Source: a virus. From it: 27,605 nucleotides of DNA. The DNA is taken from IMG/VR virus record IMGVR_UViG_3300026077_000506, positions 1 through 27,605 of that record; one strand, written 5' to 3'. The translations under genes and the position numbers were made by a program. The notes under the pieces are model-generated. The model saw nothing but the letters and a program-made list of their open reading frames with translations. It was not told the DNA's origin and did no database searches. Below are positions 1-21,295 of this stretch, in pieces. Numbering within the stretch: the first letter of the stretch is position 1; the number at the start of each line of letters is the position of its first letter.

Positions 1-314
1 CCACTACCCTGTGAATATGCATCACTTGTCATTGAAACATTAACGGGTGGTGTTCTAAAATAATCAAGAACTATTCTTACCAATTCATTTTTAATTTTAC
101 GAACATCATTTACTTCCTCTCTTTTTGAATAATTAATAACATATTTTCCACCCTCATTATTGTACCCTAATTTATCTTCGTGTAATGTAATGTATGTTTT
201 TAAACTACAAGCAAAACTAATTACTGAACCAAATCCATATCTCTCTACAAATACAGGATTATCTGTAGAACCTCCAAACAAAGATACTCGTAAAGGACAA
301 GATGAAATGAACAT
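1..314 (-). CDS. GHMP-family sugar kinase, N-terminal part (runs off the window)
   Basis: The reading frame starts at an ATG that overlaps the TAA of the upstream epimerase (TAATG) and stays open to the window edge, giving about 104 residues. The N-terminus carries the GHMP substrate motif PLRVSLFGGSTDNP. The last visible residues (SDAYSQGSG) are the start of the glycine-rich ATP loop, normally PxGSGLGSSS. This is the arrangement seen in D-glycero-D-manno-heptose 7-phosphate kinase (HddA-like) and related sugar kinases, which phosphorylate a sugar C1 or equivalent hydroxyl using ATP. Its place at the downstream end of a nucleotide-sugar operon fits activation of a sugar for GDP or UDP coupling. 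The substrate cannot be read from this fragment. Confidence 0.8.
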   Translation of the reverse strand, partial: MFISSCPLRVSLFGGSTDNPVFVERYGFGSVISFACSLKTYITLHEDKLGYNNEGGKYVINYSKREEVNDVRKIKNELVRIVLDYFRTPPVNVSMTSDAYSQGS

Positions 315-1420
315 TATGATACATCCCTCAAGACATTTAACTCTTCCATTTTTTTACTACAATATTCGATTATATTATCAATAGAAGATGCACAATCTAA
401 CCACTCTTTATATTCAACAATACTGTCATATATTGTTCTGCTTGGTTTCCATCCTAAACTTTCAAGTTTAGATATATCAGACCATATGTGACGGGTATCA
501 CCAAAACGATATTTACCAGAGGGTTTTGGTTGATAATTTTTGATATCATATATTTTTGCACAAGCACTTGCAAACTGATTTACAGTAACGGGTGCACCTC
601 CACCAACATTAAACATTTCATAATCTGCACGTTCATCTTCTAAAACTAAAAGATTAGCATCTACAACATCGTGTATGTTTACAAAATCTCTTACTTGATT
701 TCCATCTTCATATATCTGTGGTTCTTTACCTTGATGAAATGCTAATGAAAAGATGCGACACGCACCACTATAAGCATTGTAAAAACTTTGTCTTGAACCT
801 TGTACGATTGAATATCTCATTGCAACTGTAGGTATCTTATATCTCTTTCCTAATTGTAATGCAAACATCTCTTCTGCAATCTTACTCATACCATATGGGT
901 TCTGAGGATTTGATATTCTTTCTGGTGTTTTTGCTAAGAATAATTCACCACCATCCTCTGCTGTTAAATCAAATATTCCTTTTTCTAAGTTCTCCTCTAA
1001 TCTTGAATCAGGTAAAACTTCATTTCCACGACTATCAAGATATAAACCCTCTCCAAGTGCTGCTTGACTACTTGCAACAATAACTTTTTTGATTGGTAAA
1101 TTATCTCTTACTATAATTTCATATATTCTAGCAGTTGATGCTACATTTACATCTACAAATTTTGAGAAGTATGGTAGATAATCTTGAAATGCTGCAAGAT
1201 GATAAACATAATCTACACCTTGCAAGGCTTCTGTTATAGCACGAATATCAGTTGCACTACCTGCTATAAATTCTATTCGTTCATCAAGGTAATCTGGTAT
1301 TGCATTATGAATAGGTTTTTGAAGTGAATCAAGAACTCTAACTTCATATCCTTCTTTTAATAAACGGTCAGCAGTATGAGATCCAATAAAACCTGCTCCA
1401 CCTGTAATCAATACTTTCAT
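314..1420 (-). CDS. NAD-dependent sugar epimerase/dehydratase (extended SDR, GalE-like)
   Basis: This 368-residue extended short-chain dehydrogenase/reductase probably acts on a nucleotide-activated sugar. The N-terminus has the Rossmann fingerprint GGAGFIG (residues 7-13). The catalytic set is visible as Ser118 in ASSQA and Tyr176-x3-Lys180 in NPYGMSK. The C-terminal half has the usual VRDFVNIHDVVDAN segment that caps the sugar site. Between the catalytic serine and YxxxK there are 58 residues, clearly more than the roughly 25 in GalE, so this enzyme has an insertion of about 30 residues near the active site. It overlaps the upstream methyltransferase by ATGA and the downstream kinase by TAATG. 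Epimerase and dehydratase activities cannot be separated by eye. Confidence 0.85.
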   Translation of the reverse strand: MKVLITGGAGFIGSHTADRLLKEGYEVRVLDSLQKPIHNAIPDYLDERIEFIAGSATDIRAITEALQGVDYVYHLAAFQDYLPYFSKFVDVNVASTARIYEIIVRDNLPIKKVIVASSQAALGEGLYLDSRGNEVLPDSRLEENLEKGIFDLTAEDGGELFLAKTPERISNPQNPYGMSKIAEEMFALQLGKRYKIPTVAMRYSIVQGSRQSFYNAYSGACRIFSLAFHQGKEPQIYEDGNQVRDFVNIHDVVDANLLVLEDERADYEMFNVGGGAPVTVNQFASACAKIYDIKNYQPKPSGKYRFGDTRHIWSDISKLESLGWKPSRTIYDSIVEYKEWLDCASSIDNIIEYCSKKMEELNVLRDVS

Positions 1421-2052
1421 TTTTTAATAGCGATAAATCCCTTACTTCTGCCTGGTGGGTCAGTAAGTATATAATCATTATAGAACTCAAACTCCCATTC
1501 GGCAAGTGTGTCGCTCCACCATTCGGGCGGTCTGATATTCCAACACTCACGATGATAAAAATTACCCCAAGGTTCAGAGCAAGCAAGAACGGAACCAATA
1601 GGTGCAATCTTATCAATCGTTTTTAATATACCTAATACATCTTCATCTTCAAGATGTGCAAGACAGCACATTGTAGAAAAGAAAGTTGGTTTAGATAATT
1701 TTAATTTTGATATTTCTTCTTCAGCAAAACCATTAATATATTTTACTTTCTTATTATCAGGATATATCTTCTTTGCAATTTCAATCGCTGATGAAGATGG
1801 TTCAATCGCATATACTTTTTTATATTTTCTCTGCTCCACCAAATAGTTTGCAAACCATCCTGTACCAGACCCAATATCAACACCAGAAGTTAATTCATAC
1901 TTATCTAAAGCATCTCCGTGTGGTATATCTTCTTGATATAAGAATTTAAAATTGTCACTATTATGCTCTTGATGTGCTTTCTTTTCTCTTTCAAAAGCAT
2001 CATCTTTTACATAGTTTACGTTATGTTGTTCTAACGATTCAACGTTAGGCAT
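1417..2052 (-). CDS. Class I SAM-dependent methyltransferase
   Basis: This 211-residue soluble protein has the SAM-binding motif I VDIGSGTGWFANYL around residues 58-71 and the motif II acidic end YAIEPSSSAIE about 25 residues later. The pattern is that of small-molecule or sugar methyltransferases of the Methyltransf_11/23 type. It overlaps the glycosyltransferase upstream by 8 nt and the epimerase downstream by ATGA, so it is translated within the polysaccharide operon. O- or N-methylation of a sugar residue of the surface glycan is the natural inference. The acceptor is unknown. Confidence 0.8.
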   Translation of the reverse strand: MPNVESLEQHNVNYVKDDAFEREKKAHQEHNSDNFKFLYQEDIPHGDALDKYELTSGVDIGSGTGWFANYLVEQRKYKKVYAIEPSSSAIEIAKKIYPDNKKVKYINGFAEEEISKLKLSKPTFFSTMCCLAHLEDEDVLGILKTIDKIAPIGSVLACSEPWGNFYHRECWNIRPPEWWSDTLAEWEFEFYNDYILTDPPGRSKGFIAIKK

Positions 2053-3145
2053 TTGCAGCCTCCCGATACAAAGTCACAAACTTACTTATAATAGAAGGAA
2101 CATCGTATATTTCTCGGTATCTTTTTTCTGCGTTTATTTTACAAACAACATAATAATTTTTATTGTTCATAAGATTTTTCATCGCATCAGAGTATTGTAT
2201 ATAATCTTCAACGACTTCACCTGCATCTCCTATCTGCTCTTTCTGTCCCATACTTGATGCTGTATGACTTATCATCGGTAAATGATGTGATAGTCCTTCA
2301 ATAATTGAACTCGAACATTGTTCACCATCAGACCTTCCGTGTGCATATACATTGAGTGTATTTAAAAACTTATGAATTAAATTAATATCACTTGTAGTAT
2401 CTAAAAATTTTACATTCTTGAGTTGATAATCTTTTGCTTGTTTACGATGATTTGCACTACCACCTAATATTAAAAATGCTGTATCATCACTTTGTATTTC
2501 TTCGTATGCATCTAGTGGCATTGGTGAGAATATATGCATATCATTTCTTTGATGCATTCCAAAAACAAACTTACCTTCCCATCCAAACTCTTCAATATAA
2601 GATGATGAATCGTAATCTGGAACTTCTACAGGAACAGGAATAATAACACCTCTTTGAGGATTACCACCTGCCTGTACCCATTTAGATTTTTGTTCCTGAG
2701 ATATTAAAACTGTACGGTATACATTTGCTTTATCTTCACCCATACCTGCAAGATGAATACTATCAATTATAGGTGTACTATTAATATGAATAAAAGGATA
2801 TTCGGGATGTCCAGAGCGACCAGTTTGAATTACATCATAATTATCTTCGTTAAACAAATCAAAGAAATTAGTATTCACCCAGTCGTGAGTTGGTTTAGTT
2901 ACATCTTTATATTCAACATCAAACTTGATTAGATTTACACCGTGTGATTCTGTGTATTGAACTCTTGATTCATCAGTATCAAGATGTTTAAAATCTGAAC
3001 CAATATAAGGTGCAGCATCACAATAAAAGAAATCAACTTGAAACTCATCTTTTGGTAAATGTGCAGCAATAGTTTGAAGATACTTTTCAGTACCACCATT
3101 TGCCATACCACCAAATTTTATGAAAGCAACTTTAATTTTTGCCAT
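2045..3145 (-). CDS. Glycosyltransferase, GT-B fold (GT4-like)
   Basis: This 366-residue protein begins with IKVAFIKFGGMANGGTEKYL, the typical first strand and glycine-rich loop of retaining GT4-type glycosyltransferases. The C-terminal domain contains GRSDGEQCSSSIIEGLSHHL, which matches the E-x7-E donor-binding motif of that clan. It has no membrane segment, so it should act at the cytoplasmic face. It overlaps its neighbours by 14 and 8 nt within the sugar operon. The sugar donor cannot be predicted, although a GDP-sugar would fit the neighbouring enzymes. Confidence 0.8.
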   Translation of the reverse strand: MAKIKVAFIKFGGMANGGTEKYLQTIAAHLPKDEFQVDFFYCDAAPYIGSDFKHLDTDESRVQYTESHGVNLIKFDVEYKDVTKPTHDWVNTNFFDLFNEDNYDVIQTGRSGHPEYPFIHINSTPIIDSIHLAGMGEDKANVYRTVLISQEQKSKWVQAGGNPQRGVIIPVPVEVPDYDSSSYIEEFGWEGKFVFGMHQRNDMHIFSPMPLDAYEEIQSDDTAFLILGGSANHRKQAKDYQLKNVKFLDTTSDINLIHKFLNTLNVYAHGRSDGEQCSSSIIEGLSHHLPMISHTASSMGQKEQIGDAGEVVEDYIQYSDAMKNLMNNKNYYVVCKINAEKRYREIYDVPSIISKFVTLYREAANA

Positions 3146-4034
3146 TTAATCTATCTCTCAATTGAGGAATGTGCCACACATTCAAGTCCTTGAAGTATTC
3201 TACACCATATTCATCAAAATGTCTATAGATGTCTGGTAGTAAGTTCTTTCTCATAAAATATTTTTCATTCCATTCTGGATCAAAGTTAGGTATATCTGGT
3301 AATGGTATATTCTCAATCCATTCCTCTGGCATCTGTGTCATACCTACATTATCTTCTAACATTGTAATACTATACTTACTATTAATTTCGTGTATTGCAC
3401 CTTGACCTTTTTGAACTAATTCTCCTATCTGACACCAAGCTTGTTTCAGTTGAAAATTATTATAGAAACTAAACTGATAATGTAATACAGCACCATGTTC
3501 AAGTTCTAATGTTCTTTGTGTTTCATCTGTATTCGGTCCTATTGTTCTACCTTCACACATGTAACCATAATTATAATTTAATGAAGGGTCATCACGAACG
3601 ATAAAATCTTTAAAATTATTACTCCAAACTGTATAATCATTTCTAAAATGTGTACAACTTTTCCAGAGTGCTAACCATTGCATTCTAACCTTTTCGCCTG
3701 GTTCAAGTTGAGACATTATATCTCTGGCGATTGGTACAAAATTAGATGTAAATGTTTCATCAGCATCAAGACAAACAAAGTGTGTACCACCTGATTCTCT
3801 TCCATAATTAAAAAGATGTTGACGTATCAATCCACAAGTCCATCCACCTTTTAGTTTTTCTGTATCATCATATCCTTTGACTATCACTCCTGCATCTTCC
3901 ATAATCTTACGGGAGTTATCTGTTGAGTGATCATCAACTGCAATTATCTCATCACATATTGGTTTGACATTTGACAAATATGTTGGAAGAAAATGTTCTT
4001 CATTTTTAAATGGTATAAGACCAATTACTTTCAT
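3132..4034 (-). CDS. Glycosyltransferase family 2 (GT-A fold)
   Basis: This 300-residue protein opens with MKVIGLIPFKNEEHFLPTYL and the nucleotide-binding segment EIIAVDDHSTDNS, both typical of GT2 enzymes. A DxD-type metal site is visible as CLDADETF near residue 90. The order of motifs (KNEE, DDxSxDxS, DADE) is that of inverting GT-A transferases that extend cell-surface glycans. The gene starts with an ATGA overlap to the preceding methyltransferase-like gene and overlaps the following GT-B gene by 14 nt. Donor and acceptor are not determinable. Confidence 0.85.
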   Translation of the reverse strand: MKVIGLIPFKNEEHFLPTYLSNVKPICDEIIAVDDHSTDNSRKIMEDAGVIVKGYDDTEKLKGGWTCGLIRQHLFNYGRESGGTHFVCLDADETFTSNFVPIARDIMSQLEPGEKVRMQWLALWKSCTHFRNDYTVWSNNFKDFIVRDDPSLNYNYGYMCEGRTIGPNTDETQRTLELEHGAVLHYQFSFYNNFQLKQAWCQIGELVQKGQGAIHEINSKYSITMLEDNVGMTQMPEEWIENIPLPDIPNFDPEWNEKYFMRKNLLPDIYRHFDEYGVEYFKDLNVWHIPQLRDRLNGKN

Positions 4035-4657
4035 TTTAAATACACTCCAAAACCTGTATCATTATGTGCCCATTCAGTTACATCATACTTATATGTGTAA
4101 TCTAACTCTGTATGAAATCTCCACTTGGTTCGACCAGGCATTGATGGACGAATATCATCTATTAACATTACACAATCATCTTTCATATATGGTTCCCATA
4201 ATTGAAACTCTGCTAACACTTGTTCATAAGTATGAATGGTATCTAAAAATATCATTGAGATGCTTTTCTTCTCAAAAGTTTTTGATACTCTATCAGAATC
4301 TAAAGCATCAAAATCATTTAATATTTTAACTCTTGAATCACTCTTTATTTTATTATTAATGAAACGAACATCATCTACAATATCAAGTGTATATAATTCA
4401 CTATTTTCACTAAGTGCATCGTAGATAGAAAGTATTCCAAGTCCTTCACGATTACCTAATTCAACAATAGTTCCTTCAATATTAGATGTTAGATTATGCA
4501 ATAAAGAGAAGTATCCATGATTTCCGTCCTTATTAAATATGAAAACATTGTAGACATTATCATTACGAATTAAATCTGCAAGTGATTCATCATTCCATTT
4601 AATGTATGGACTACTCTGAGTATCAGAGATTATTTTTTCTAGGGTTGTATTATTCAT
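4031..4657 (-). CDS. Class I methyltransferase-like protein (Methyltransf_24 / CmcI-like)
   Basis: This 208-residue protein has a SAM-binding-like strand and loop GTIVELGNREGLGILSIYDAL, followed by the acidic turn LYTLDIVDD and the segment MIFLDTIHTYEQVLAEFQLWEPYMKDD. The DxxHxYEQVxxEFxxWxPYL pattern is characteristic of the Methyltransf_24/cephalosporin hydroxylase-like group often found in bacterial polysaccharide clusters. It is coupled by ATGA overlaps on both sides to GT2 genes, so a role in decorating the same glycan is likely. Actual methyl transfer is inferred from fold only. Confidence 0.7.
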   Translation of the reverse strand: MNNTTLEKIISDTQSSPYIKWNDESLADLIRNDNVYNVFIFNKDGNHGYFSLLHNLTSNIEGTIVELGNREGLGILSIYDALSENSELYTLDIVDDVRFINNKIKSDSRVKILNDFDALDSDRVSKTFEKKSISMIFLDTIHTYEQVLAEFQLWEPYMKDDCVMLIDDIRPSMPGRTKWRFHTELDYTYKYDVTEWAHNDTGFGVYLK

Positions 4658-5430
4658 CTTAAATTAGAGACTGGAATTTTTTGTTCATCAACAATTATAT
4701 TTTCTACATCATAAGTTCTTGTATAAGGAATTAATTGTGGTTCTAGTACTCTAATATCATAACGTAATTCAATCACAGTTCTTTCTACTGGTTGTTTACT
4801 GTCTGGTTTTGTACTTTGACCTAATCCTTCATTTAAATAATATCCAAGATTAATAGGTAGGTGTAAACCTTTTCCGTTAAATGCAAGACGTAATGCTAAA
4901 TCATAATCAGCACCTTGAACCAACTGTTCATCAAACACTCCTGACTTTTCAAGTATTGACTTACGAAACATAAAATACGGACCTAAAATCATACCTGTTG
5001 TAAGTTCATCTTCACGACCAGTTTCATCTACGTATTGTCCTTGAGTTCCACCAAAATTAGGAACTATTGTATAATTACCATATACAAAATCAACATCAGG
5101 ATTTTCATCTAATGCCTTTGCCATCTCTTCAATAGAATCTGTTGTTCTTAAATCATCAACATTCCAGATACAAAGATAATCGCCTGTAGCATATTCGATA
5201 CAACGATTCATAGATGTGCCAATAGGGTCAACACCTTCTACTTTAATATGTAAAATATTATCATACTGTTCATTATACTCCTCAACCAGTTTTACTTCTT
5301 CATCAGAAGGGTCATTATGATCAAGAACAATCTCTAAATCTTTATGAGTTTGTGTGGAAAGATTATCTAAAAAACCTTTCATATACTTGCTCATATTATA
5401 GCAAGGTGTAATCGTGCTTACTTTAGTCAT
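4654..5430 (-). CDS. Glycosyltransferase family 2 (GT-A fold)
   Basis: This 258-residue protein starts VSTITPCYNMSKYMKGFLDN, the classical GT2 entry (TPxYN...FLxS), with QTHKDLEIVLDHNDPSDEE as the nucleotide-binding turn. YLCIWNVDDLRTTDSI supplies the DD metal motif near residue 93. The segment ILEKSGVFDEQLVQGADYDLALRLA matches the conserved G.FDE....EDxDL region of GT2 enzymes, with a GADYDL variant. It overlaps the upstream epimerase by 8 nt and the following gene by ATGA. It is the third glycosyltransferase of the cassette, so at least three linkages could be made. Confidence 0.85.
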   Translation of the reverse strand: MTKVSTITPCYNMSKYMKGFLDNLSTQTHKDLEIVLDHNDPSDEEVKLVEEYNEQYDNILHIKVEGVDPIGTSMNRCIEYATGDYLCIWNVDDLRTTDSIEEMAKALDENPDVDFVYGNYTIVPNFGGTQGQYVDETGREDELTTGMILGPYFMFRKSILEKSGVFDEQLVQGADYDLALRLAFNGKGLHLPINLGYYLNEGLGQSTKPDSKQPVERTVIELRYDIRVLEPQLIPYTRTYDVENIIVDEQKIPVSNLR

Positions 5431-6271
5431 AATCTTTTCTCATTGATTCAAATACTTTTGCAATACCAGTAACTAAATCTGTTTTTGGAGACCAATATTT
5501 TCTGATAAAAGGGTCTGCCTCATTTCGTTTATCAAGTTGAACAGTGTCACTTGCTTTGCCTGGTATAATATTAACTGGTTTACCAATTAATCTAAATTCA
5601 TTTTCTATTATTATAGCAACTTCTCTGATGGTTGTATAGTCAAAGTTAGTAATATGTAACGGGTCGTTAGCATAGAACTCATCATAATTTTTCATCACTG
5701 CTTCTAATCCTTCACAGCAATCTTCTGCATATAAAAATTGTCTGACTTCTTCTCCATCTGTTAACATTTCAAAGTCACCATCTTCAAATCCTTTACGAAT
5801 AAAATCTGTGATAACGTGTGCCTTTTTATGATCTTTCTCAATACCATATACATTCCAGAACTTTACAACTAATCCACCAAGAGACTCAGTATATAATTCA
5901 CCAAGTCTTTTCAAAGTTCCATAAGGAGAGTAACTCATATTACTCATCTGTGATGATGCAAATATGAAAGGTTTATCATACTGTTCTAAAAGACCAAATG
6001 TGTTTGCCATCAACCTTGTATTATTGTTTACAAAGTCAAATGTATGTTGATACTTTTTAAGATACCTAGAACCACCAACATCAAAGGCAAGAAAGAAAAC
6101 AAAGTCACTGTCCATAATTGCATTGCGAAGGTATGTATTTGGAATATGTGTCATGTCCTGATGTATTCCATTTACAATATCAAACTCTCTTACAATATGA
6201 CCTTTTCTTGAAAGATATTCTGAAAGATATGCTCCTATCTGACCACTTGAACCTAGAACGGTTATTATCAT
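5423..6271 (-). CDS. NAD-dependent epimerase/dehydratase (extended SDR)
   Basis: This 282-residue SDR has the nucleotide-binding loop VLGSSGQIGAYL at the very N-terminus, catalytic SSQ followed by SPYGTLK (YxxxK), and VRQFLYAEDCCEGL in the substrate domain. I chose the ATG at 6271 because it forms a 4-nt ATGA overlap with the upstream gene and puts the first beta strand at the start; another ATG 12 nt upstream at 6283 adds four residues. It is shorter than GalE-type enzymes and its Rossmann loop is GxSGxxG rather than GGxGxxG. Its position next to the GDP-mannose enzymes suggests an NDP-hexose reductase or epimerase. The exact reaction is unknown. Confidence 0.8.
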   Translation of the reverse strand: MIITVLGSSGQIGAYLSEYLSRKGHIVREFDIVNGIHQDMTHIPNTYLRNAIMDSDFVFFLAFDVGGSRYLKKYQHTFDFVNNNTRLMANTFGLLEQYDKPFIFASSQMSNMSYSPYGTLKRLGELYTESLGGLVVKFWNVYGIEKDHKKAHVITDFIRKGFEDGDFEMLTDGEEVRQFLYAEDCCEGLEAVMKNYDEFYANDPLHITNFDYTTIREVAIIIENEFRLIGKPVNIIPGKASDTVQLDKRNEADPFIRKYWSPKTDLVTGIAKVFESMRKDYD

Positions 6272-7305
6272 TTGTCCATCCATTCCAAAAACCTAGTAAA
6301 TATACTAACATTTTGTTCTACTTCTATTTCTATATTGCCTAACTGTTCTTCATTTATCCAATCATATGTTTTCTTGATACCCTCTTCAAGTGTCATTGTA
6401 TAATCCCAATCTAACTTCTCACGAATTAAATCATTGTTAGAATTACGACCACGAACACCTAGAGGTCCATCAATATGATTTTTCTCTACTTCTTTATCTG
6501 CTACCTTCGCTGCAATATCTACAAGTTCATTTATTGATACCATTTCTTCTGAACCTATGTTCACAGGACCAGTGAAGTCTGATTGTACTAATCTATAGGT
6601 TGCTTCGACGCATTCATCAACGAACAAGAAGGAACGAGTTTGTAAGCCATCTCCCCACACCTCGATGGTTCCACCTCCCTTCGGGAGTTCAGCAACTTTG
6701 CGACAGATTGCTGCAGGAGCTTTCTCTCTTCCTCCTGTCCAAGTTCCTTCGGGACCGAAGATATTATGATATCTGGCAATACGAACAGGAACATCGTAGT
6801 TGCGATGATAAGAAAGGTATAACCTTTCTGAAAAAAGTTTTTCCCAACCGTATTCTGAATCTGGGTTGGCAGGATATGCGGTATCTTCACGGCAGTCTGG
6901 TGTATTTGGGTCTAATTGATTGTGCTCTGGGTACATACACGCAGAGGAAGAAAAGAATATCTTTGGTTTATAATCTTTAACGTTTCTAAGTATGTTTAGA
7001 TTTATTGTTGCAGAGTTGTTCATCACATCTGCATCGTGCTCTCCTGTAAATATATAACCTGCTCCTCCCATATCAGCAGCGAACTGATATATCTCATCAA
7101 ACTCTGTATTACATACCATATCGCAGAATGTTTGACCTGTTAAGTCTCCTCTTAGAAACTCATCTGCTTCTGACATTGAAAATTCTGGATATTTAATATC
7201 TGCACCTCTTACCCAGTATCCTTCAGATTTTAATTTCTTTACCATATGACTTCCAATGAAGCCACCCGCACCACATACAAGTGCCTTCTTAGTTTCACTT
7301 TCCAT
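6268..7305 (-). CDS. gme: GDP-mannose 3,5-epimerase (plant GME-like)
   Basis: This 345-residue extended SDR has the Rossmann loop GAGGFIG near residue 12. Its core is unusually close to plant GDP-D-mannose 3,5-epimerase: QFAADMGGAGYIF, SSACMYPE, RYHNIFGPEGTWTGGREKAP and GDGLQTRSFLFVDECVEA are all family signatures. Four catalytic residues line up with a constant offset of 22 to the Arabidopsis enzyme numbering known to me (Cys145, Tyr174, Lys178, Lys217): here Cys123, Tyr152, Lys156 and Lys195. The reaction would convert GDP-mannose to GDP-L-galactose and/or GDP-L-gulose in the cytoplasm. It lies directly downstream of the GDP-fucose genes (11-nt overlap), which share its substrate. The stretch 6600-6780 is visibly richer in G+C than its surroundings. 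Confidence 0.88.
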   Translation of the reverse strand: MESETKKALVCGAGGFIGSHMVKKLKSEGYWVRGADIKYPEFSMSEADEFLRGDLTGQTFCDMVCNTEFDEIYQFAADMGGAGYIFTGEHDADVMNNSATINLNILRNVKDYKPKIFFSSSACMYPEHNQLDPNTPDCREDTAYPANPDSEYGWEKLFSERLYLSYHRNYDVPVRIARYHNIFGPEGTWTGGREKAPAAICRKVAELPKGGGTIEVWGDGLQTRSFLFVDECVEATYRLVQSDFTGPVNIGSEEMVSINELVDIAAKVADKEVEKNHIDGPLGVRGRNSNNDLIREKLDWDYTMTLEEGIKKTYDWINEEQLGNIEIEVEQNVSIFTRFLEWMDK

Positions 7306-8269
7306 ATTCTAGTTCATTCCTATTATATATTCGTAAATTTGACCTGTTATTTTTCATCCACTCATAGGTAGATTCAAGTCCTTCACGTAAACTAATCTTG
7401 GGTTCCCAACCCAAAGATTTAACCTTGTCTACATTCAAAACTTTTCTTGGTGTTCCATTTGGTTTTGATGTATCCCATTCATAATCATTCTTATATCCTG
7501 TGACTTCAACAATCATTTCTGCAAGTTCTTTAATTGTGACATCTTCACCAGTTCCAATATTGATTATCTCATCACTATCATATCTTTCCATACAGATAAG
7601 AAGTGCTGCTGCTAAATCATCAACGTGTAGAAACTCTCTTCTTGCACTACCATCACCCCAGAGTTTTACTATCCAATGCTTACTCTTCTCTAATGAACCA
7701 TCAAACTTAGCAAGTAAAGATGGAAGAACGTGACCATAATTTATATCAAAATTATCATTCGGTCCGTATAGATTTGTTGGCATCACAGCAATCGCATTCA
7801 ATCCATACTGTTTACGATATGCCTGACACATCTTAATACCTGCTATCTTTGCAATTGCATATGCATCATTGCTTCCCTCAAGAGGACCTGTGAGTAATTG
7901 GTCTTCTGTGATTGGTTGTTTTGCATACTTAGGATATATGCAAGATGAACCTAGAAATAGTAATTTTTCAACACCAACCATTGCTGCACTACTGATTATA
8001 TTAGATTGAATCATAAGATTCTCATATATGAAATCAGCAGGGTAATTGGAATTACCACCAATACCTCCTACTTTTGCAGCAGCAAGAAACACATACTCAG
8101 GTTGTTCCATCATAAAGAACATCTTAACTGCATTCTGATCAGTCAAATCACATTGAAAACGATTCACAGTTATAATATTTGTAAATCCTTTCTCTTTTAA
8201 ATGACGAACGATTGCAGAACCAACTAAACCAGTATGTCCTGCTACAAAAATTTTTGAATCACTGCCCAT
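7295..8269 (-). CDS. fcl: GDP-L-fucose synthase
   Basis: This is a 324-residue bifunctional epimerase/reductase making GDP-L-fucose from the 4-keto-6-deoxy product of Gmd. The signatures are [14 protein letters not shown] at residues 11-24, [19 protein letters not shown] with Ser108/Cys110, and AYAIAK with Tyr137-x3-Lys141. These positions match E. coli Fcl within one residue and the length is normal. I chose ATG at 8269 because the frame upstream offers only a TTG at 8287. The start overlaps the gmd stop by 11 nt and is preceded by a GAGGA sequence about 11 nt upstream. It pairs with gmd as in bacterial capsule and LPS clusters. Confidence 0.93.
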
Positions 8270-9269
8270 AGATACACATATCCTCAACTAATTGTTTGAA
8301 TGTTGTTTTAGGTTCCCAACCTAATTTCTGTTTTGCTTTTGTTGCATCACCAAGTAAACTTTCAACCTCTGCAGGTCTGAAATACTTTTCATTAACAGCA
8401 ACAATAGTTCTCTTCGTTGTCTTATCAATTCCAATCTCATCTAAACCAGAACCCATCCATTCAATATTAAATCCAAATATTGGTGCTGCTGCCTCTACAA
8501 ATTCACGAACAGAGTGTTGTTCACCCGTAGCAATGACGTAATCATCTGGTTCATCTTGTTGTAGCATCATCCACATTGCTTCAACATAATCTTTTGCGTG
8601 ACCCCAATCTCTCTTTGCATCAAGATTACCAAGATACAAAACATTCTGTAATCCAACAGATATTCTTGAAAGACCTTGTGTTATCTTACGAGTCACAAAA
8701 GTTTCTCCTCTTCTAGGAGACTCGTGGTTGAATAGAATACCAGAACTGCAATGCATATTATATGCTTCACGATAGTTCTTAATTATCCAGTAACCATATA
8801 GTTTCGCAACTCCATATGGAGAACGTGGATGAAATGGTGTTGTTTCTGTCTGTGGAAACTCTTGTGCCTGTCCATAAAGTTCTGATGTAGATGCTTGATA
8901 GATGCGTACATCATCTTGCATACCAAGAATTCTTACTGCTTCAAGAATACGAAGTGTACCCATTGCATCAACCATACCAGTATATTCTGGCAACTCAAAA
9001 GAAACCTTAACGTGACTCTGTGCTGCGAGATTATAAATTTCGTGTGGTTGAACTTTTTGTATAATATGAATGATACTACCAGAATCGGTCATATCACCAT
9101 AATGAAGTTTAATCTTGCTGTAGATAGGGTCAATACGATGGGTATTAATCAGAGAACTTCTCCTGACAATACCGTGTACATCATACCCCTTAGACAATAA
9201 AAACTCGGCAAGATATGAACCATCCTGCCCAGTTATGCCTGTTATTAATGCTGTTCTAGCGTATTTCAT
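8259..9269 (-). CDS. gmd: GDP-mannose 4,6-dehydratase
   Basis: This 336-residue enzyme dehydrates GDP-D-mannose to GDP-4-keto-6-deoxymannose, the precursor of GDP-fucose, rhamnose and perosamine. The family fingerprints are clear: [17 protein letters not shown] at the N-terminus, [37 protein letters not shown] for YxxxK, and [18 protein letters not shown]. The start ATG at 9269 is used rather than the in-frame GTG at 9275. No strong Shine-Dalgarno is seen. It opens the run of overlapping sugar genes, and a 31-nt gap separates it from the cupin gene upstream. Confidence 0.95.
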
Positions 9270-9300
9270 AATCACATAATAAAGAAAAATTTAGAGATTG

Positions 9301-9639
9301 TCAATCCCTTCCGTGGTCATCCTCAAATCTTTCAATGTCATCCTCCTCTAGGTAAGGACCACTTTGAACCTCAATAATTTTAAGTGGTATCTTACCAGGA
9401 TTTGACAAACGATGCTTACATCCTAACGGAATGTATGTGCTTTGATTCTCACCGATTAATTGTCTAGCATCATTTAATTGAACCTCTGCTGTGCCACTCA
9501 CAACAATCCAATGCTCGGTTCGATGATGATGCTTTTGAAGTGATAATCTATGACCTGGTTTTACTTCAATGTTTTTTACTTTGAATCTTTCACCTTGATC
9601 AATTACTTCATACCAACCCCAAGGTCTTTCTTCCTTCAT
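9301..9639 (-). CDS. Cupin mannose-6-phosphate isomerase (type II, C-terminal domain only)
   Basis: This 112-residue single cupin matches the C-terminal isomerase domain of bifunctional ManC/AlgA proteins: [41 protein letters not shown], and [13 protein letters not shown]. The metal-binding HHHRTEHW cluster and the later His are present. The guanylyltransferase domain that usually precedes it is absent, so the protein can only interconvert fructose-6-phosphate and mannose-6-phosphate. GDP-mannose would then need host phosphomannomutase and guanylyltransferase. It lies upstream of gmd and is coupled by an ATGA overlap to a small unknown gene. Confidence 0.88.
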
Positions 9640-13736: not shown

Positions 13737-13744
13737 GCTAAATA
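13737..13744 (+). promoter_or_regulatory. Late-promoter-like box GCTAAATA for the exported-protein genes
   Basis: GCTAAATA lies 28 nt before the ATG at 13773, the distance expected for a T4-type late promoter with a short leader. It is the only promoter-like sequence I see for the three plus-strand exported genes, and it suggests late expression. Confidence 0.5.
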
Positions 13745-13772: not shown

Positions 13773-14261
13773 ATGAAAAAACTATTACCTATATTATTGT
13801 TAGCGGGTTTTAGTTCACCTGCAATGGCAGATTTGACTCATAAACTTTCAAGCAGTGTTCAGTTGAGTGTAAACGCAGCTGCAACTCAGGTTGATAGGAT
13901 TGGTTCAACATATACCATATCAGGTTCAAATATTGATACAACTGATGGTACAACAGCAGGTACAGTATCTGCAGGAACTATCACATCAGGCATATATGCT
14001 CCTGGTACAATTGCAGCAACTCAAGATACAGCAGGTTCTGCTTTCAGCTTTTCGAGTTCCTACATTCAAGGTGATGCGGTAGCAACATCAGCTCCAACAG
14101 TGGGTCAGGTTGGTAACTTCTCAAGTCAGGTATCAACAGCAGCTGGTACAAAAGATACATTAGCAGGTACTATTACAAGTGCAGGTGTTATCACAGTAAC
14201 AGCAGGTGGTGCAGGTACTGTGGCTACTGGACAATTTGTAAACGAATTGACAATTAACTAA
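13773..14261 (+). CDS. Exported Ser/Thr/Gly/Ala-rich protein, first of three
   Basis: This 162-residue protein has a signal peptide MKKLLPILLLAGFSSPAMA (cleavage before DLTHK). The mature part is low-complexity, rich in Thr, Ser, Gly and Ala, with a beta-strand-like pattern such as GTITSGIYAPGTI and GVITVTAGGAGTV, and without Cys or long charged runs. STYTISGSNI and GSAFSFSSSY resemble YQYVVTGTNI and GEAFQFTESY in the next gene, so the two look like diverged paralogues. An extracellular or virion-surface fibre-like protein is a reasonable inference, but I recognise no named family. Confidence 0.8.
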   Translation: MKKLLPILLLAGFSSPAMADLTHKLSSSVQLSVNAAATQVDRIGSTYTISGSNIDTTDGTTAGTVSAGTITSGIYAPGTIAATQDTAGSAFSFSSSYIQGDAVATSAPTVGQVGNFSSQVSTAAGTKDTLAGTITSAGVITVTAGGAGTVATGQFVNELTIN

Positions 14262-14398
14262 TGATCAATGACTTCCTTGATAATCTGGCAGCCATTCAAT
14301 ATAGAAAAATGCATGTCGAAGGCAAACGTTGCGATGTGTGTGATATGCTCTGCCCTTGCAAGTGTGCCGACTGCGATTGCAGTCCCAGTCGTCCCTAA
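14261..14398 (+). CDS. Candidate 45-residue cysteine-rich protein in an overlapping frame
   Basis: The ATG overlaps the stop of the preceding gene (TAATG), a common coupling arrangement in this window. The frame encodes 45 residues, MINDFLDNLAAIQYRKM followed by a region with seven cysteines in CDVCDMLCPCKCADCDC, then SPSRP. The pattern could bind metal. Most of it overlaps the signal-peptide region of the next gene in another frame, so one of the two readings may be incidental. The local G+C is clearly above the surroundings, as may happen under dual coding. Confidence 0.4.
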   Translation: MINDFLDNLAAIQYRKMHVEGKRCDVCDMLCPCKCADCDCSPSRP

Positions 14399-14759
14399 TT
14401 TTACCCAGGGCTCGATGACCTCAAACACGGAGACAACATCTACCGTAACTGAGACGATCAATAGTATGAATTACGATACTGGGTATCAATATGTGGTAAC
14501 TGGTACAAATATTTCCCACGATGGGAACACTATTTCAGCACCAAACACAACTGGAAATAGTAATACATTAAATGGAGTGACTTCAACATGGACGAACTTG
14601 GATCTACAAAACAAACCAAACTTTACAATAACAACACCAGGAGAAGCGTTTCAATTTACAGAAAGTTATTCTGGCCCAGGACTCTCAAATCACACAATAA
14701 TAAATCGCACAACAACCATCCAAAGCGTCACAAACACGACAAGCACGTTCTCAAACTGA
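14313..14759 (+). CDS. Exported Thr/Asn-rich protein, second of three
   Basis: From the ATG at 14313 this is 148 residues with a signal peptide MSKANVAMCVICSALASVPTAIA. An in-frame ATG at 14268 would add 15 residues before it. The mature protein is rich in Thr, Asn and Ser (for example TETTSTVTETIN) and contains repeated N-x-T/S sequences. It resembles the preceding exported protein in two places, supporting a tandem duplication. It ends inside the overlapping start region of the third exported gene. Likely secreted or virion-associated; no family recognised. Confidence 0.75.
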   Translation: MSKANVAMCVICSALASVPTAIAVPVVPNFTQGSMTSNTETTSTVTETINSMNYDTGYQYVVTGTNISHDGNTISAPNTTGNSNTLNGVTSTWTNLDLQNKPNFTITTPGEAFQFTESYSGPGLSNHTIINRTTTIQSVTNTTSTFSN

Positions 14760-15454
14760 TATCACTGTGTCTCACAGTTGGAACAGCAACCCCATCATTC
14801 GCTTCAGACATTGGGGGTGTTTCTGCTACAGCAAATCCAGTCGCCAATAGTTCTGGCTCAGTTACCAATCAAGCTATACAAGTTTTACAGGGTCCGTATA
14901 TAACTAATACTTATGGAAATGGTATACAATGTCAAGGTCCTACTATGAACGTAACACCATTTGCAACAGGAAATATCGCAGTCAAACGTCCTTATGAAGA
15001 TTATTGGATGGATCCAGTGTACAATAATGTAGACGCAAATAATGACGATGTGCCCGATAATCCAGGAGAAATTTTATATTATAAACCAGTTCGCACAGGA
15101 CAAAAAGATAGTAGCACATTATCAATAGGTATATCTGCAACTTGGTCTAAACCATTAGATAAGAAACTACAAGAGCAATGCAAACAGGCAGCAGATGCAA
15201 ATATCGCATTGATGAATCAAGCAGTCGCTAATAAAAGATTAGATTTTGAGATTGCAAGATTAAAGAACTGTGGTGAATTGATGAAGGCAGGAATAATTTT
15301 CAAACCTGGTACTGAATATGCAAAGGTATGTGCAGATGTAATGCTTATAAATCCACCAGGTGTCGTTGCGAATCATACACACGAATTACCAGTAAAACCA
15401 CCCATCAGTAATGATGCGAATGTATTGAAAGAAATATCTATTGGTAATAATTAA
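14588..15454 (+). CDS. Exported protein with conserved C-terminal domain, third of three
   Basis: The only ATG upstream of the signal-like segment is at 14588, preceded at about 10 nt by GGAG. This gives 288 residues with a long basic N-region (SHNNHPKRHKHDKH) and then a hydrophobic core VLKLISLCLTVGTATPSFA. The mature part includes GNGIQCQGPTMNVTPFATGN and a C-terminal helical domain with CKQAADANIALMNQAVANKR and RLDFEIARLKNCGELMKAGI. The first 172 nt overlap the previous gene in another frame, so the true start may instead be a non-ATG codon near 14747-14759 (a CTG lies at 14756). The stop shares TTAA with the convergent gene. Confidence 0.75.
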   Translation: MDELGSTKQTKLYNNNTRRSVSIYRKLFWPRTLKSHNNKSHNNHPKRHKHDKHVLKLISLCLTVGTATPSFASDIGGVSATANPVANSSGSVTNQAIQVLQGPYITNTYGNGIQCQGPTMNVTPFATGNIAVKRPYEDYWMDPVYNNVDANNDDVPDNPGEILYYKPVRTGQKDSSTLSIGISATWSKPLDKKLQEQCKQAADANIALMNQAVANKRLDFEIARLKNCGELMKAGIIFKPGTEYAKVCADVMLINPPGVVANHTHELPVKPPISNDANVLKEISIGNN

Positions 15455-16224
15455 TTTTTCTTTTTAATTGGGGGTAATCCCTTCTTTTCTCGATACTTAT
15501 TTGTTTGTATTTCTGAACGGGTGGGTGGTTCAATTTTCTTTCCTAATTTTTTCTGTAATGTCTTCCATAATTTTGTAATTACAGGTTTAAATATTCTCAA
15601 TAATAAAGGTGTAGCAGCTGCAGATGCTGTTGCCACTATGGCTATTGCTGCTGTGGTTGTGGCTTGATTAGTAGAAGGTAAATATTTTTCAACAGCAGTA
15701 GTTGGTTCATATAAAACTACACAAGTTGTACCTTGTATTTCGTGACCTATAACTCTCTCATCACCCTTCTGTGTTAAGTCACCAACTCTTGGTTGATTAG
15801 GTGCAGGGCAAGGAGTTTCTTTTTCTTCTCCACCAACATCACTTGTATCGGGAGGTGTAGGTGGTTCGACTTCTGGTGGGGGTGAAACAGGTGGTGGTGG
15901 AGTTTCTTTTTTAATGATTAATTGCTCTGGTGTATATTCCATTGCATCATATGTTGGATACTCACCATGAGGACATAACGTTGTTGTACCTTTTTCATCC
16001 TGATTTACTAGGTCTTTATCAAAAGGTAATCTTGATACATGGTTTTTATTATCCTGATGCATCTTGACGCAACCAGGTATCTCCACAATTGGAAATCCAA
16101 TTTGTGTTGTAATCGGTGGATGATTACTTGGAATACTGGGTATTCCATATATCCACTGTTGATTACTAACAACAACATTAGGTATTGTTATATTAGGTAC
16201 ATCAATATTATTTACTGGGGACAT
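15451..16224 (-). CDS. Proline-rich, C-terminally anchored membrane protein
   Basis: This 257-residue protein has an N-terminal region of short repeats rich in Asn, Pro and Ile (VPNITIPNVVVSN). A polyproline stretch (ETPPPPVSPPPEVEPPTPP) spans roughly residues 110-130. A conserved-looking segment with EPTTAVEKYLPSTNQA precedes a hydrophobic Ala-rich helix near residue 195, and the end is a basic tail (KKGLPPIKKKN). The ATG at 16224 is chosen because only GTG codons lie upstream; GGTGGTG precedes it. It overlaps the upstream small membrane gene by 17 nt. The layout (Pro-rich spacer plus anchor) suggests an envelope-spanning protein; it faces the exported genes and may work with them. Confidence 0.75.
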   Translation of the reverse strand: MSPVNNIDVPNITIPNVVVSNQQWIYGIPSIPSNHPPITTQIGFPIVEIPGCVKMHQDNKNHVSRLPFDKDLVNQDEKGTTTLCPHGEYPTYDAMEYTPEQLIIKKETPPPPVSPPPEVEPPTPPDTSDVGGEEKETPCPAPNQPRVGDLTQKGDERVIGHEIQGTTCVVLYEPTTAVEKYLPSTNQATTTAAIAIVATASAAATPLLLRIFKPVITKLWKTLQKKLGKKIEPPTRSEIQTNKYREKKGLPPIKKKN

Positions 16225-16420
16225 AAACACCACCAGATTGTTTAGGCATTACAAATTTTATCTGTTTGTACACCTCTTCAATAATAGTATCTTTAATAAA
16301 CTTTCGATTTTCATCAACTCTTTTATCATACATCTTCAAATTGTATAATAAAGCAGCAAACATAAAAAGGTTGATACCTAAAGATACACCAACTCCAATT
16401 TTAAATAACAAAGATTTCAT
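16208..16420 (-). CDS. Small single-pass membrane protein
   Basis: This 70-residue protein has a hydrophobic segment at residues 4-27 (LLFKIGVGVSLGINLFMFAALLY) followed by a charged helical tail containing DKRVDENRKFIKDTIIEEVYKQ. It starts in an ATGA overlap with the gene upstream. A single-pass protein with a coiled-coil-like tail next to another such protein could be part of the lysis or envelope apparatus, but no family is recognisable. Confidence 0.72.
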   Translation of the reverse strand: MKSLLFKIGVGVSLGINLFMFAALLYNLKMYDKRVDENRKFIKDTIIEEVYKQIKFVMPKQSGGVYVPSK

Positions 16421-16607: not shown

Positions 16608-17063
16608 TTAACCCTCTAATAATGTACCATGTGCTCTTCTTATCTCTCTTAACTCTTCAAAGTTCTTTTGCTTTGTTCCACCATCATATGCCCAAGCATA
16701 TCCTTCTTCAATCATTTTTTCGTTGAGCGATACCACATCATCGCCAACGTATAACCAACCAAGCAACCTACCATACTTACCCATGCCACCTTGGAGTTCA
16801 GTTCTAATAGTGAGTTCATCATCTCCATCAATTGTATCCTCTAAATTTTTCTTCATCCAGTTTGTAGCATCTAATCCCAATGCTTTCTCTTCTAAATCTC
16901 TTGTCCTTTTCTCAGGAGTATCAACTCCTGCAACTCTGACTCTTTCTTTTTTGTAAAGGTCAAATCCTAAGTCGATTGTTACATCAATAGTGTCTCCATC
17001 GACAACTCTATTGATTTCCGTTACTCGGAAGTTGTAACAACTCTTCCGACTCGGTGGAACCAT
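16608..17063 (-). CDS. Staphylococcal nuclease-like thermonuclease
   Basis: This SNase-fold nuclease of about 151 residues cuts DNA or RNA phosphodiesters with calcium in the family. The motifs are INRVVDGDTIDVTIDLG, VRVAGVDTPEKR and KYGRLLGWLY, giving the family's catalytic Arg (VRVAG), Glu (TPE) and Arg (YGR). No signal peptide is visible, so it probably acts in the cytoplasm, for example on host nucleic acid. The start is uncertain: ATG codons exist at 17063 and 17072 and a GTG at 17093. I chose 17063, which has GGGAG just upstream and shortens the overlap with the lipoprotein gene. Confidence 0.88.
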   Translation of the reverse strand: MVPPSRKSCYNFRVTEINRVVDGDTIDVTIDLGFDLYKKERVRVAGVDTPEKRTRDLEEKALGLDATNWMKKNLEDTIDGDDELTIRTELQGGMGKYGRLLGWLYVGDDVVSLNEKMIEEGYAWAYDGGTKQKNFEELREIRRAHGTLLEG

Positions 17064-17376
17064 TGCTCCCATATTTAAATTCTGCAAGTGCACTATTTAT
17101 AGCATCGGAAGGTATGGTTGCATTTTTTTCTATCTGACCTTTTCTTACATTTCTTTGAAACATCATCTGTATGCTCTGCCAGTGATGTGGATTGTAAATA
17201 TCAATTTCGCCTTTAAGTTGTTCTTTTGGTAATTCAACGGGTTTAACAAGTATCAAATCTTTAGGACAATGTGTAGGTTCACCATCTAAACGAGGACTAC
17301 AAGCGTGTGCAGGTGGGTCTGTTATTGGTGCAGTACATCCAACCAATATAAATGGTAGTGCCAAATATTTAATCAT
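17008..17376 (-). CDS. Putative lipoprotein
   Basis: From the ATG at 17376 this is 122 residues with a lipoprotein signal MIKYLALPFILVGCTAP, where LVGC is a good lipobox and Cys14 the lipidation site. An ATG at 17394 adds six residues. The mature protein has two more cysteines (HACSPRLDGEPTHC), a Lys/Pro/Glu segment and no second membrane helix. It overlaps the nuclease gene by 56 nt and the small membrane gene upstream by 8 nt. A spanin-like or envelope role is possible given small membrane neighbours, but nothing proves it. Confidence 0.72.
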   Translation of the reverse strand: MIKYLALPFILVGCTAPITDPPAHACSPRLDGEPTHCPKDLILVKPVELPKEQLKGEIDIYNPHHWQSIQMMFQRNVRKGQIEKNATIPSDAINSALAEFKYGSNGSTESEELLQLPSNGNQ

Positions 17377-20006: not shown

Positions 20007-20570
20007 CTAGCAGTTCTTATTTAAGTCCTCTGCCATCTGACCACCTATATCTGCACCTTGATTACCACCAAACATTGTTACCCAGCCAGCAGCAACCCAA
20101 CCAACATAGGGAATATTAGCGAGAGAAGGAGCAGCACTAGCACCAATACTGGAACCCACGAGTCTTCCTGTTCCTTCTGCACCTCCGATTGCTTTGATAC
20201 ATGCTTCGGACTTTCCGTTTGCGATTGTTGTCGATGAACTATCGGGTTTTGTGTGAACTGCACCGTCCATTGTGTACTGTTCAACCGTTTTAACTTTGTT
20301 GTTAGCCAACCCAAGAAAGCCACCCTTTGTGTTACTATCCCGTTCCACACGAAGAACCTTTGGATCGTTTGCTTTATATTCTATATAATACCCATTATGA
20401 CTAACATCTGCTTTGTATGATGTATAAGGACCAACTGGTAAGTTGATACTTGGCAATTTACTTTGACGATTTGATAAAGAACCTATCATACCAATGTGAG
20501 ATATTCCAATGAGTCCACCTAATCCCAAGGCAAACCATTTACCCCATTTCACTTCTTTCTTCTCCATCAT
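20007..20570 (-). CDS. Membrane-anchored Gly-rich protein, unknown
   Basis: This 187-residue protein has an N-terminal anchor (about residues 11-30, WFALGLGGLIGISHIGMIG), a soluble middle containing PVGPYTSYKADVSHNGYYIE, and a glycine/alanine-rich hydrophobic region near residues 128-168 (GRLVGSSIGASAAPSLANIP, then VAAGWVTMFGG). The pattern of glycine-rich helices resembles glycine-zipper membrane proteins. It starts in an ATGA overlap with the gene upstream. Family unknown; envelope or virion membrane association is inferred. Confidence 0.78.
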   Translation of the reverse strand: MMEKKEVKWGKWFALGLGGLIGISHIGMIGSLSNRQSKLPSINLPVGPYTSYKADVSHNGYYIEYKANDPKVLRVERDSNTKGGFLGLANNKVKTVEQYTMDGAVHTKPDSSSTTIANGKSEACIKAIGGAEGTGRLVGSSIGASAAPSLANIPYVGWVAAGWVTMFGGNQGADIGGQMAEDLNKNC

Positions 20571-20986
20571 GCTTTCTTGGGAGGATTACCAGGTGATATA
20601 ACCATTGGTGCTTGCTCTAATCTTATAGTTTGAGCAGGTGCTGCTTGAGTTGCTTTCTCTATAAGCATCTCCATATCTTTCTTTGATATGTTTTGACCCC
20701 CGCCACCATTTGCTTTATTACCTTTATTTTTACCTGCTTCGACACCGAATGTAGCTAGGACCCCTGTAAAGACCGAAGCTATGAAAGTTGGATCAATCTT
20801 ATCCTGCTCTGTCATACCAGGAAAAGTGACATAATTCAATGTTAATATTCCACCTGCCCAGACTAAAATCCCAAGTCTTACAAAAGTACTCAGGATTGCC
20901 ATCTGTTCTTCTTTGTCCTCAGATAACTCTTTGAGTTTACCTATAGGACCTTTTTCTTTTAGTTCTTCTTTTTTTGCTTCAGCCAT
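20567..20986 (-). CDS. Two-helix membrane protein, unknown
   Basis: This 139-residue protein has a Lys/Glu-rich N-terminus, two hydrophobic segments (about residues 32-55 and 67-82), a Gly/Lys/Asn linker (NKGNKANGGGGQN) and a helical C-terminus ending PGNPPKKA. The arrangement looks like a small channel-type or holin-like protein, but there is no diagnostic motif. It is coupled by ATGA to the next gene. A TATAAT within an inverted repeat lies just upstream. Confidence 0.75.
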   Translation of the reverse strand: MAEAKKEELKEKGPIGKLKELSEDKEEQMAILSTFVRLGILVWAGGILTLNYVTFPGMTEQDKIDPTFIASVFTGVLATFGVEAGKNKGNKANGGGGQNISKKDMEMLIEKATQAAPAQTIRLEQAPMVISPGNPPKKA

Positions 20987-20994
20987 GGGATTAG

Positions 20995-21016
20995 TATGTC
21001 TATATTATATATAGAC
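20995..21016 (-). promoter_or_regulatory. Promoter-like -10 within an inverted repeat
   Basis: GTCTATAT-TAT-ATATAGAC (20998-21016) is a perfect 8-bp inverted repeat containing TATAAT on the minus strand (21004-21009), upstream of the ATG at 20986. The 15-mer at 20995-21009 is identical to one at 10077-10091 in the other strong promoter. No -35 box is seen, but TTAAATA lies at 21027-21033. The repeat may bind a regulator. Confidence 0.4.
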
Positions 21017-21034
21017 ACTTAACCCCTATTTAAC

Positions 21035-21295
21035 CTAAAAACCGAATGGTACAGGTGATTCTGAGTCTGCAGGTGAGTCTGGTGCTGCCATAGGATTAGA
21101 TGGTGCAGGTAAACCCAATCCACCACCTAATGCACCTTGTCCAAGTCCACCAGGCAATACTGATTCCATTACCTTACTCTTGACGTTCTCGATAATCGCA
21201 TCCTTGCGTATGAATACGTAACCGCCAAGACCAACAACGGTGAGAGATACAACACCACTTGCAATAGCGATTCCATTTACAATTTTCTGTAACAT
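21035..21295 (-). CDS. Small membrane protein with Gly/Pro-rich tail
   Basis: This 86-residue protein has a single membrane segment (about residues 5-28, IVNGIAIASGVVSLTVVGLGGY), a short charged helix, then a Gly/Leu/Pro/Ser-rich tail (VLPGGLGQGALGGGLGLPAP) ending SPVPFGF. The tail looks disordered. No family recognised; it sits in a run of small membrane genes and might be a structural or envelope accessory protein. Confidence 0.72.
   Translation of the reverse strand: MLQKIVNGIAIASGVVSLTVVGLGGYVFIRKDAIIENVKSKVMESVLPGGLGQGALGGGLGLPAPSNPMAAPDSPADSESPVPFGF

Follow-up and report, generated by a model that had tools for sequence, protein, structure and literature searches.

A conserved cyanophage cassette of predicted exported proteins with an out-of-frame overlapping gene pair, and its possible part in late lysis

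In its account of the gene cluster considered here, Sullivan et al. 2010 (PMC3037559) already groups T4-GC 218, 219, 234, 235 and 237 and a 'plasmid stability' gene into a conserved cassette; the proteins are termed hypothetical and are given no function. In Kongari 2018 (PMC6139136), P-SSP7, P-HM1, P-SSM2, Syn9 and other cyanophages have no detectable spanin, 20 of the 91 phages on the spanin-less list have Prochlorococcus or Synechococcus as host, and it is proposed that a type I protein of the inner membrane, or else a protein of the outer membrane, could act as spanin. All four of these named phages carry the cassette, which supplies candidates for both of the proposed spanin substitutes. 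The same spanin-less list also contains cyanophages that lack the cassette (S-PM2, P60 and Syn5; its absence from S-PM2 agrees with the cluster account of 2010), so that spanin absence does not track the cassette, and the list argues that some alternative is needed, not that the cassette is that alternative.

The window (the whole stretch of DNA analysed, 27.6 kb) is a virus fragment from a T4-like cyanophage; it carries talC, pstS, plastocyanin and plastoquinol terminal oxidase along with T4-like cyanophage families, and its closest relatives are P-TIM68, P-HM1 and P-SSM2. Its island of three plus-strand genes and the gene facing them were matched to T4-GC 237, 236, 235 and 234, and the Sullivan 2010 cassette clusters and the plasmid stability gene are all present, at 13773-16224 and 20007-21295. 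The latter segment, on the minus strand, is a further part of the set that the earlier note had not connected with the island. Families and arrangement are those of the published cassette, the window members being identified by profile; in the part of the 2010 paper that describes it, the cassette is reported for myoviruses only, and T4-GC 236 stands outside the named cluster. The earlier suggestion that the island is a candidate for an undescribed system therefore holds insofar as that account gives no function, but not for the gene set itself, which was listed in 2010. The features are:

13738-13744, plus strand: late-type box CTAAATA, 35 nt 5' of the gene 1 start
13773-14261, plus strand: gene 1, predicted exported β-rich protein, T4-GC 237, phrog_564
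14313-14759, plus strand: gene 2, predicted exported protein, T4-GC 236, phrog_650, DUF6322
14588-15454, plus strand: gene 3, predicted exported protein, T4-GC 235, phrog_848
14588-14759, plus strand: out-of-frame overlap of genes 2 and 3, 172 nt, with the gene 3 frame kept open
15451-16224, minus strand: facing gene, T4-GC 234, phrog_570, proline-rich protein with a single C-terminal membrane helix
16208-16420, minus strand: small membrane protein with an N-terminal helix; homologue in 50 of 319 loci
20007-20570, minus strand: T4-GC 219, phrog_605, N-terminal membrane helix and Gly-rich hydrophobic segment
20567-20986, minus strand: DUF6450 (T4-GC 218, phrog_2714), two predicted membrane helices in a holin-like layout
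21035-21295, minus strand: 'plasmid stability' protein, phrog_568, small, one N-terminal membrane helix

Three other minus-strand genes of the window were recorded. A Phage_OMP family member (PF24653, 12501-12857) adjoins pstS; the corresponding P-SSM2 protein carries a DUF680 annotation, and S-SZBM1 virions are reported to contain a DUF680 protein. An SNase-family nuclease (16608-17093) lies directly upstream of two small membrane proteins neighbouring the facing gene, and a mannose-6-phosphate isomerase-type cupin (9301-9639) lies at the edge of the long minus-strand run 3-9275.

The three plus-strand ORFs that the earlier note had picked out amid minus-strand runs (13773-14261, 14268-14759 and 14588-15454) were confirmed, and, in keeping with its remark that they have no enzyme motif, none belongs to an enzyme family in Pfam or PHROGs. 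Each also has the signal peptide ascribed to it, with a Sec-type hydrophobic core, an AxA-type cleavage site and no lipobox, as called by simple hydropathy and the -3/-1 rule rather than by SignalP. The predicted cleavage site of the gene 1 product follows residue 19 (AMA^D). For gene 2, Met 14313 is the probable start instead of the listed ORF start 14268, since the signal peptide begins there and phrog_650 aligns from residue 22. In gene 3, which has four invariant Cys, a polar, basic extension of 53-56 residues precedes the signal core (approximately residues 54-72, with the mature part from about 14807), and the core is thus not at the N-terminus of the ORF. The resemblance of genes 1 and 2 noticed earlier reflects homology (hhalign E = 1.1e-5 across the segments then quoted); gene 1 of phage MED4-117 matches phrog_650, the gene 2 family, at 5e-4, and an iterated gene 1 profile retrieves 304 gene 2 ORFs. 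An 'OMP1 protein' annotation of gene 1 was rejected, as Pfam and PHROGs gave no outer-membrane family for it. The late-type box is likewise well founded: CTAAATA lies 30-35 nt upstream of gene 1 in 46 of 54 T4-like loci, compared with 1.4 expected by shuffling. No such box was found in the siphovirus or podovirus versions, and those copies should use other promoters.

The succession of three exported plus-strand genes stands, but they are not simply consecutive as had been supposed, because gene 3 starts inside gene 2. Among 319 loci from public phages and IMG/VR, 303 of 304 pairs of the two genes share one phase of overlap. To gauge how the second frame is kept open, we counted gene 2 codons whose third base could silently be T and in which that T would create a stop in the gene 3 frame. 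T4-like phages use the stop-making T in 7 of 793 such codons lying up to 180 nt from the gene 2 end, whereas immediately upstream of the overlap the figure is 149 of 236; the siphovirus loci use it in 0/726 within 120 nt of the gene 2 end versus 225/454 at 150-179 nt. Podoviruses, where a gene 3 start is possible 8 nt after the gene 2 ATG, show depletion over most of gene 2. From the single phase and this strong avoidance of stop codons we infer that the gene 3 frame is translated within the overlap. In 64 of 92 T4-like pairs its ATG precedes the end of gene 2 by 169 nt, and an ATG or GTG is found at 136 nt in all 119 of 119 siphovirus pairs. Although the phase would permit a -1 frameshift fusion of genes 2 and 3, an independent start is the simpler explanation, given that gene 3 has its own conserved start and that stop avoidance sets in close to it.

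Third-base change in the gene 3 extension is reduced in T4-like phages (0.37 versus 0.56), and there is no reduction in siphoviruses (0.493 versus 0.494). Protein constraint on the extension was therefore rejected, and it is mainly openness that is conserved; the siphovirus overlap is otherwise free in sequence, so that what is kept is mainly the act of starting within gene 2. Genes 2 and 3 are a deeply conserved overlapping pair that is often split or mis-started in public annotation. In P-SSP7, gene 3 is annotated from an internal start in NC_006882.2 (L319:38376-39238), and its frame, intact in that record, is interrupted in GU071093.1 (L087:5902-6523). Structure models of gene 2 (pLDDT 73, two strands of 24-25 residues) and gene 3 (pLDDT 63, with a long helix) had no PDB match below E = 0.1 with Foldseek; weak matches to pore-forming proteins and phage collars were set aside as not significant, and the models, being of low confidence, add no support to a mechanism.

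The facing protein is rich in proline, as described before, and carries one membrane helix at its C-terminus, and the stops do interlock (TAA at 15452-15454 on the plus strand, and the minus-strand stop read as TTA at 15451-15453). Charge predicts an N-out/C-in topology: 218 of 218 T4-GC 234 members are more positive after the helix, a type I charge asymmetry, and in 67/67 members of the podovirus counterpart the lone C-terminal helix is followed by a strongly positive tail. Counting against this model is the absence of a signal peptide, which makes an N-out topology for ~180 residues unusual. The product of 16208-16420 has a weak Rz-like PHROG match only (E = 0.05), and no holin family match was found for DUF6450. 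Weak DUF6450 homologues (E ~1e-7 to 1e-8) were also seen in S-N03, S-H34, S-B68 and MA01 (L341, L342, L340 and L348, respectively), which are without gene 3 and have GH19/C39 endolysins; cassette-minus cluster C phages carry DUF6450, weakly.

With gene order largely kept, the set is present in T4-like phages, in T7-like phages (P-SSP7, NATL2A-133 and SS120-1) and in siphovirus MED4-117, three unrelated phage types that all retain the overlap of genes 2 and 3. P-SSP7-type podoviruses have the order p234, DUF6450, gene 2, gene 3; MED4-117-type siphoviruses (113 contigs) have DUF6450 and genes 1-2-3, followed by 234 and plasmid stability on the opposite strand. DUF6450 thus adjoins genes 2-3 in the former and genes 1-3 in the latter. 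The P-SSP7 annotation gives one helix, two helices and a possible signal peptide for three cassette members. Each family occurs in about 412-455 phage records, all of cyanophages judging by record names, and the island is therefore not a product of chance. A host origin was considered and rejected: the scan of 84,980 cell genomes yielded no convincing host gene and only 16 loci, most of them on contigs with the phage-type cassette order, several being marine MAGs or infected single cells and others isolate or MAG contigs resembling phage contamination. A 188 kb contig filed as Nonlabens xiamenensis (L328, NZ_RMVE01000006.1) has a full cyanophage cassette and is probably contamination. The cassette is a known cluster of unassigned function, extended here to three phage types with a dual-frame pair; the siphovirus and T7-like copies, the conserved overlap, the accompaniment by DUF6450 and the link to endolysins are new.

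Compared with two-component spanins (lambda Rz/Rz1; overlapped or embedded), genes 2 and 3 are alike in forming an out-of-frame overlapping pair for envelope-directed proteins, and the cassette lies near holin-like and endolysin genes in some contigs. They differ in that no cassette protein of the window has a lipobox and homology is lacking; the signal peptides of both overlapping products are cleavable, and there are extra members (gene 1, T4-GC 234 and 219). An i-spanin is a type II membrane protein with a periplasmic coiled coil; gene 3 combines a long helix with a signal that is cleavable. T4-GC 234 resembles a unimolecular spanin of the T1 gp11 type in its C-terminal helix, positive tail and extended proline-rich part, but is without the N-terminal lipoprotein signal and lipobox.

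The surroundings of the cassette in other phages bear on its function. In podoviruses the terminase small subunit follows gene 3 in 71 of 80 loci (median 331 nt), and the slot between it and the tail fibre, filled there by p234-DUF6450-gene 2-gene 3, is occupied in P60 and S-CBP42 by a GH19-type endolysin together with two small membrane proteins. Two contigs, L323 and L329, have C39-type endolysin-like ORFs directly beside the cassette. That of L323 abuts DUF6450 head-to-tail, with DUF6450 directly upstream, and matches C39 endolysins through an iterated profile only, Pfam making no call; that of L329 has a C39 domain above the Pfam cut-off and sits with two small membrane proteins whose families also neighbour the endolysins of P60 and KBS-S-2A. 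The KBS06 family is found beside the endolysin in KBS-S-2A and divergently beside DUF6450 in 34 siphovirus-type loci, and members of the P60 gp38 family adjoin the P60 endolysin and, in L331 and L334, come after gene 3. Three phages without gene 3 that were picked regardless of lysis genes (S-PM2, S-SZBM1 and S-CREM2) each have a C39 and/or GH19 endolysin, whereas the nine cassette-bearing reference phages are all without a GH19 endolysin and only DSL-LC02 among them has one of the C39 type; the remaining cassette-minus phages in the comparison had been located through their endolysins, so their share of the contrast is biased. The idea that cassette and endolysin strictly exclude each other was rejected, for it holds for GH19 in the phages tested but C39 coexists with the cassette in DSL-LC02, L323 and L329. 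Separately, residues 444-542 of P-SSP7_050 (L319:40359-42065) weakly and locally match an 'endolysin' PHROG (E = 1e-9); the protein, in which Pfam finds no enzyme, may be relevant to the lysis question.

We give a probability of about one half to a late lysis module specific to cyanophages, with the three genes as its exported part. That part would probably replace spanins in outer-membrane disruption, a mechanism that is suggested by gene neighbourhood and topology and is less likely than a lysis module in general. Late expression, export and an envelope role, all proposed in the earlier note, are supported by the late box, the signal peptides, the invariant Cys of gene 3 and the membrane-protein company; of the functions it offered, a 'release system' fits the endolysin slot of the T7-like phages and the C39-type neighbours in L323 and L329, and a 'surface filament' is without positive evidence. 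Against lysis, no homology to lysis proteins was found for any cassette member in Pfam or PHROGs, and in podoviruses and MED4-117 tail-fibre genes adjoin the set as well. The coexistence of C39 endolysins with the cassette and the weak DUF6450 homologues of cassette-minus phages also count against it.

In the proposed mechanism, the late promoter would switch on genes 1-3 at a time suggested by the box, their products would be exported and cleaved at the signal peptides, and gene 3 would be folded with two disulfides formed by its invariant Cys. DUF6450 may act as the holin, as its two-helix topology and its place directly upstream of the endolysin-like ORF in L323 suggest. T4-GC 234, proline-rich and C-terminally anchored, would extend from the inner membrane into the periplasm, and the products of genes 1-3 would lie at the outer-membrane side, where, after opening of the wall, they would break up the outer membrane in place of Rz/Rz1 spanins. 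The start of gene 3 inside gene 2 probably couples translation of both. It is conceivable, if rather doubtful, that the cassette represents an outer-membrane break unrelated to spanins, in which secreted β-strand proteins (genes 1-3) form the disrupting structure, coupled to an N-out, C-terminally anchored inner-membrane protein, with the nested dual-frame pair spread among T4-like, T7-like and siphovirus cyanophages.

Unlikely, but the best of the alternatives outside lysis, is a late surface or periplasmic layer with no direct lysis part, for example one serving superinfection exclusion or forming a secreted filament of the β-rich gene 1 and 2 proteins. The export signals on genes 1-3, the Thr/Ser-rich β-strand proteins (the gene 2 model consists of two strands of 24-25 residues), the homology of genes 1 and 2 and the conservation across phage types with common hosts would all suit such a layer, which nevertheless leaves the P60-type endolysin slot, the endolysin neighbours in L323 and L329 and the constant company of DUF6450 unexplained; late expression would be poor timing for exclusion, and searches that included Pfam and PHROGs gave no filament-family match. 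Less probable again are virion or tail-fibre associated proteins of the adsorption apparatus with signal-peptide-like N-termini, an idea that draws on the adjoining tail-fibre genes in podoviruses and MED4-117 and on weak, non-significant Foldseek matches to phage lower-collar proteins. Cleavable signal peptides and four invariant Cys point outside the cytoplasm instead, and the cluster account of Sullivan 2010 (PMC3037559) terms this cluster hypothetical and others virion structural after proteomics of S-SM1, Syn9 and S-PM2; the virion proteomes of S-SZBM1 and S-CREM2 are uninformative on this point, both phages being without gene 3 and DUF6322. Least likely is a host-takeover or envelope-maintenance cassette moved between cyanophages, its lysis neighbours due to a shared late-region position: suggested in the 2010 account of the cluster on the strength of the plasmid stability gene, and in line with that member, a variable genome position in T4-like phages and the lack of homology to any lysis protein, it fits poorly with a 'plasmid stability' protein that is here a small single-helix membrane protein, with families fixed in hundreds of cyanophages and with a gene 2/3 overlap kept in all three phage types.

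A late lysis module remains our preferred reading. Cyanophage lysis feeds much of ocean carbon turnover. Cassette-bearing phages include ones with a published gene-editing method (S-TIP37, REEP; PMC8776855), and the cassette provides a named, conserved gene set for testing how cyanophages open their hosts.
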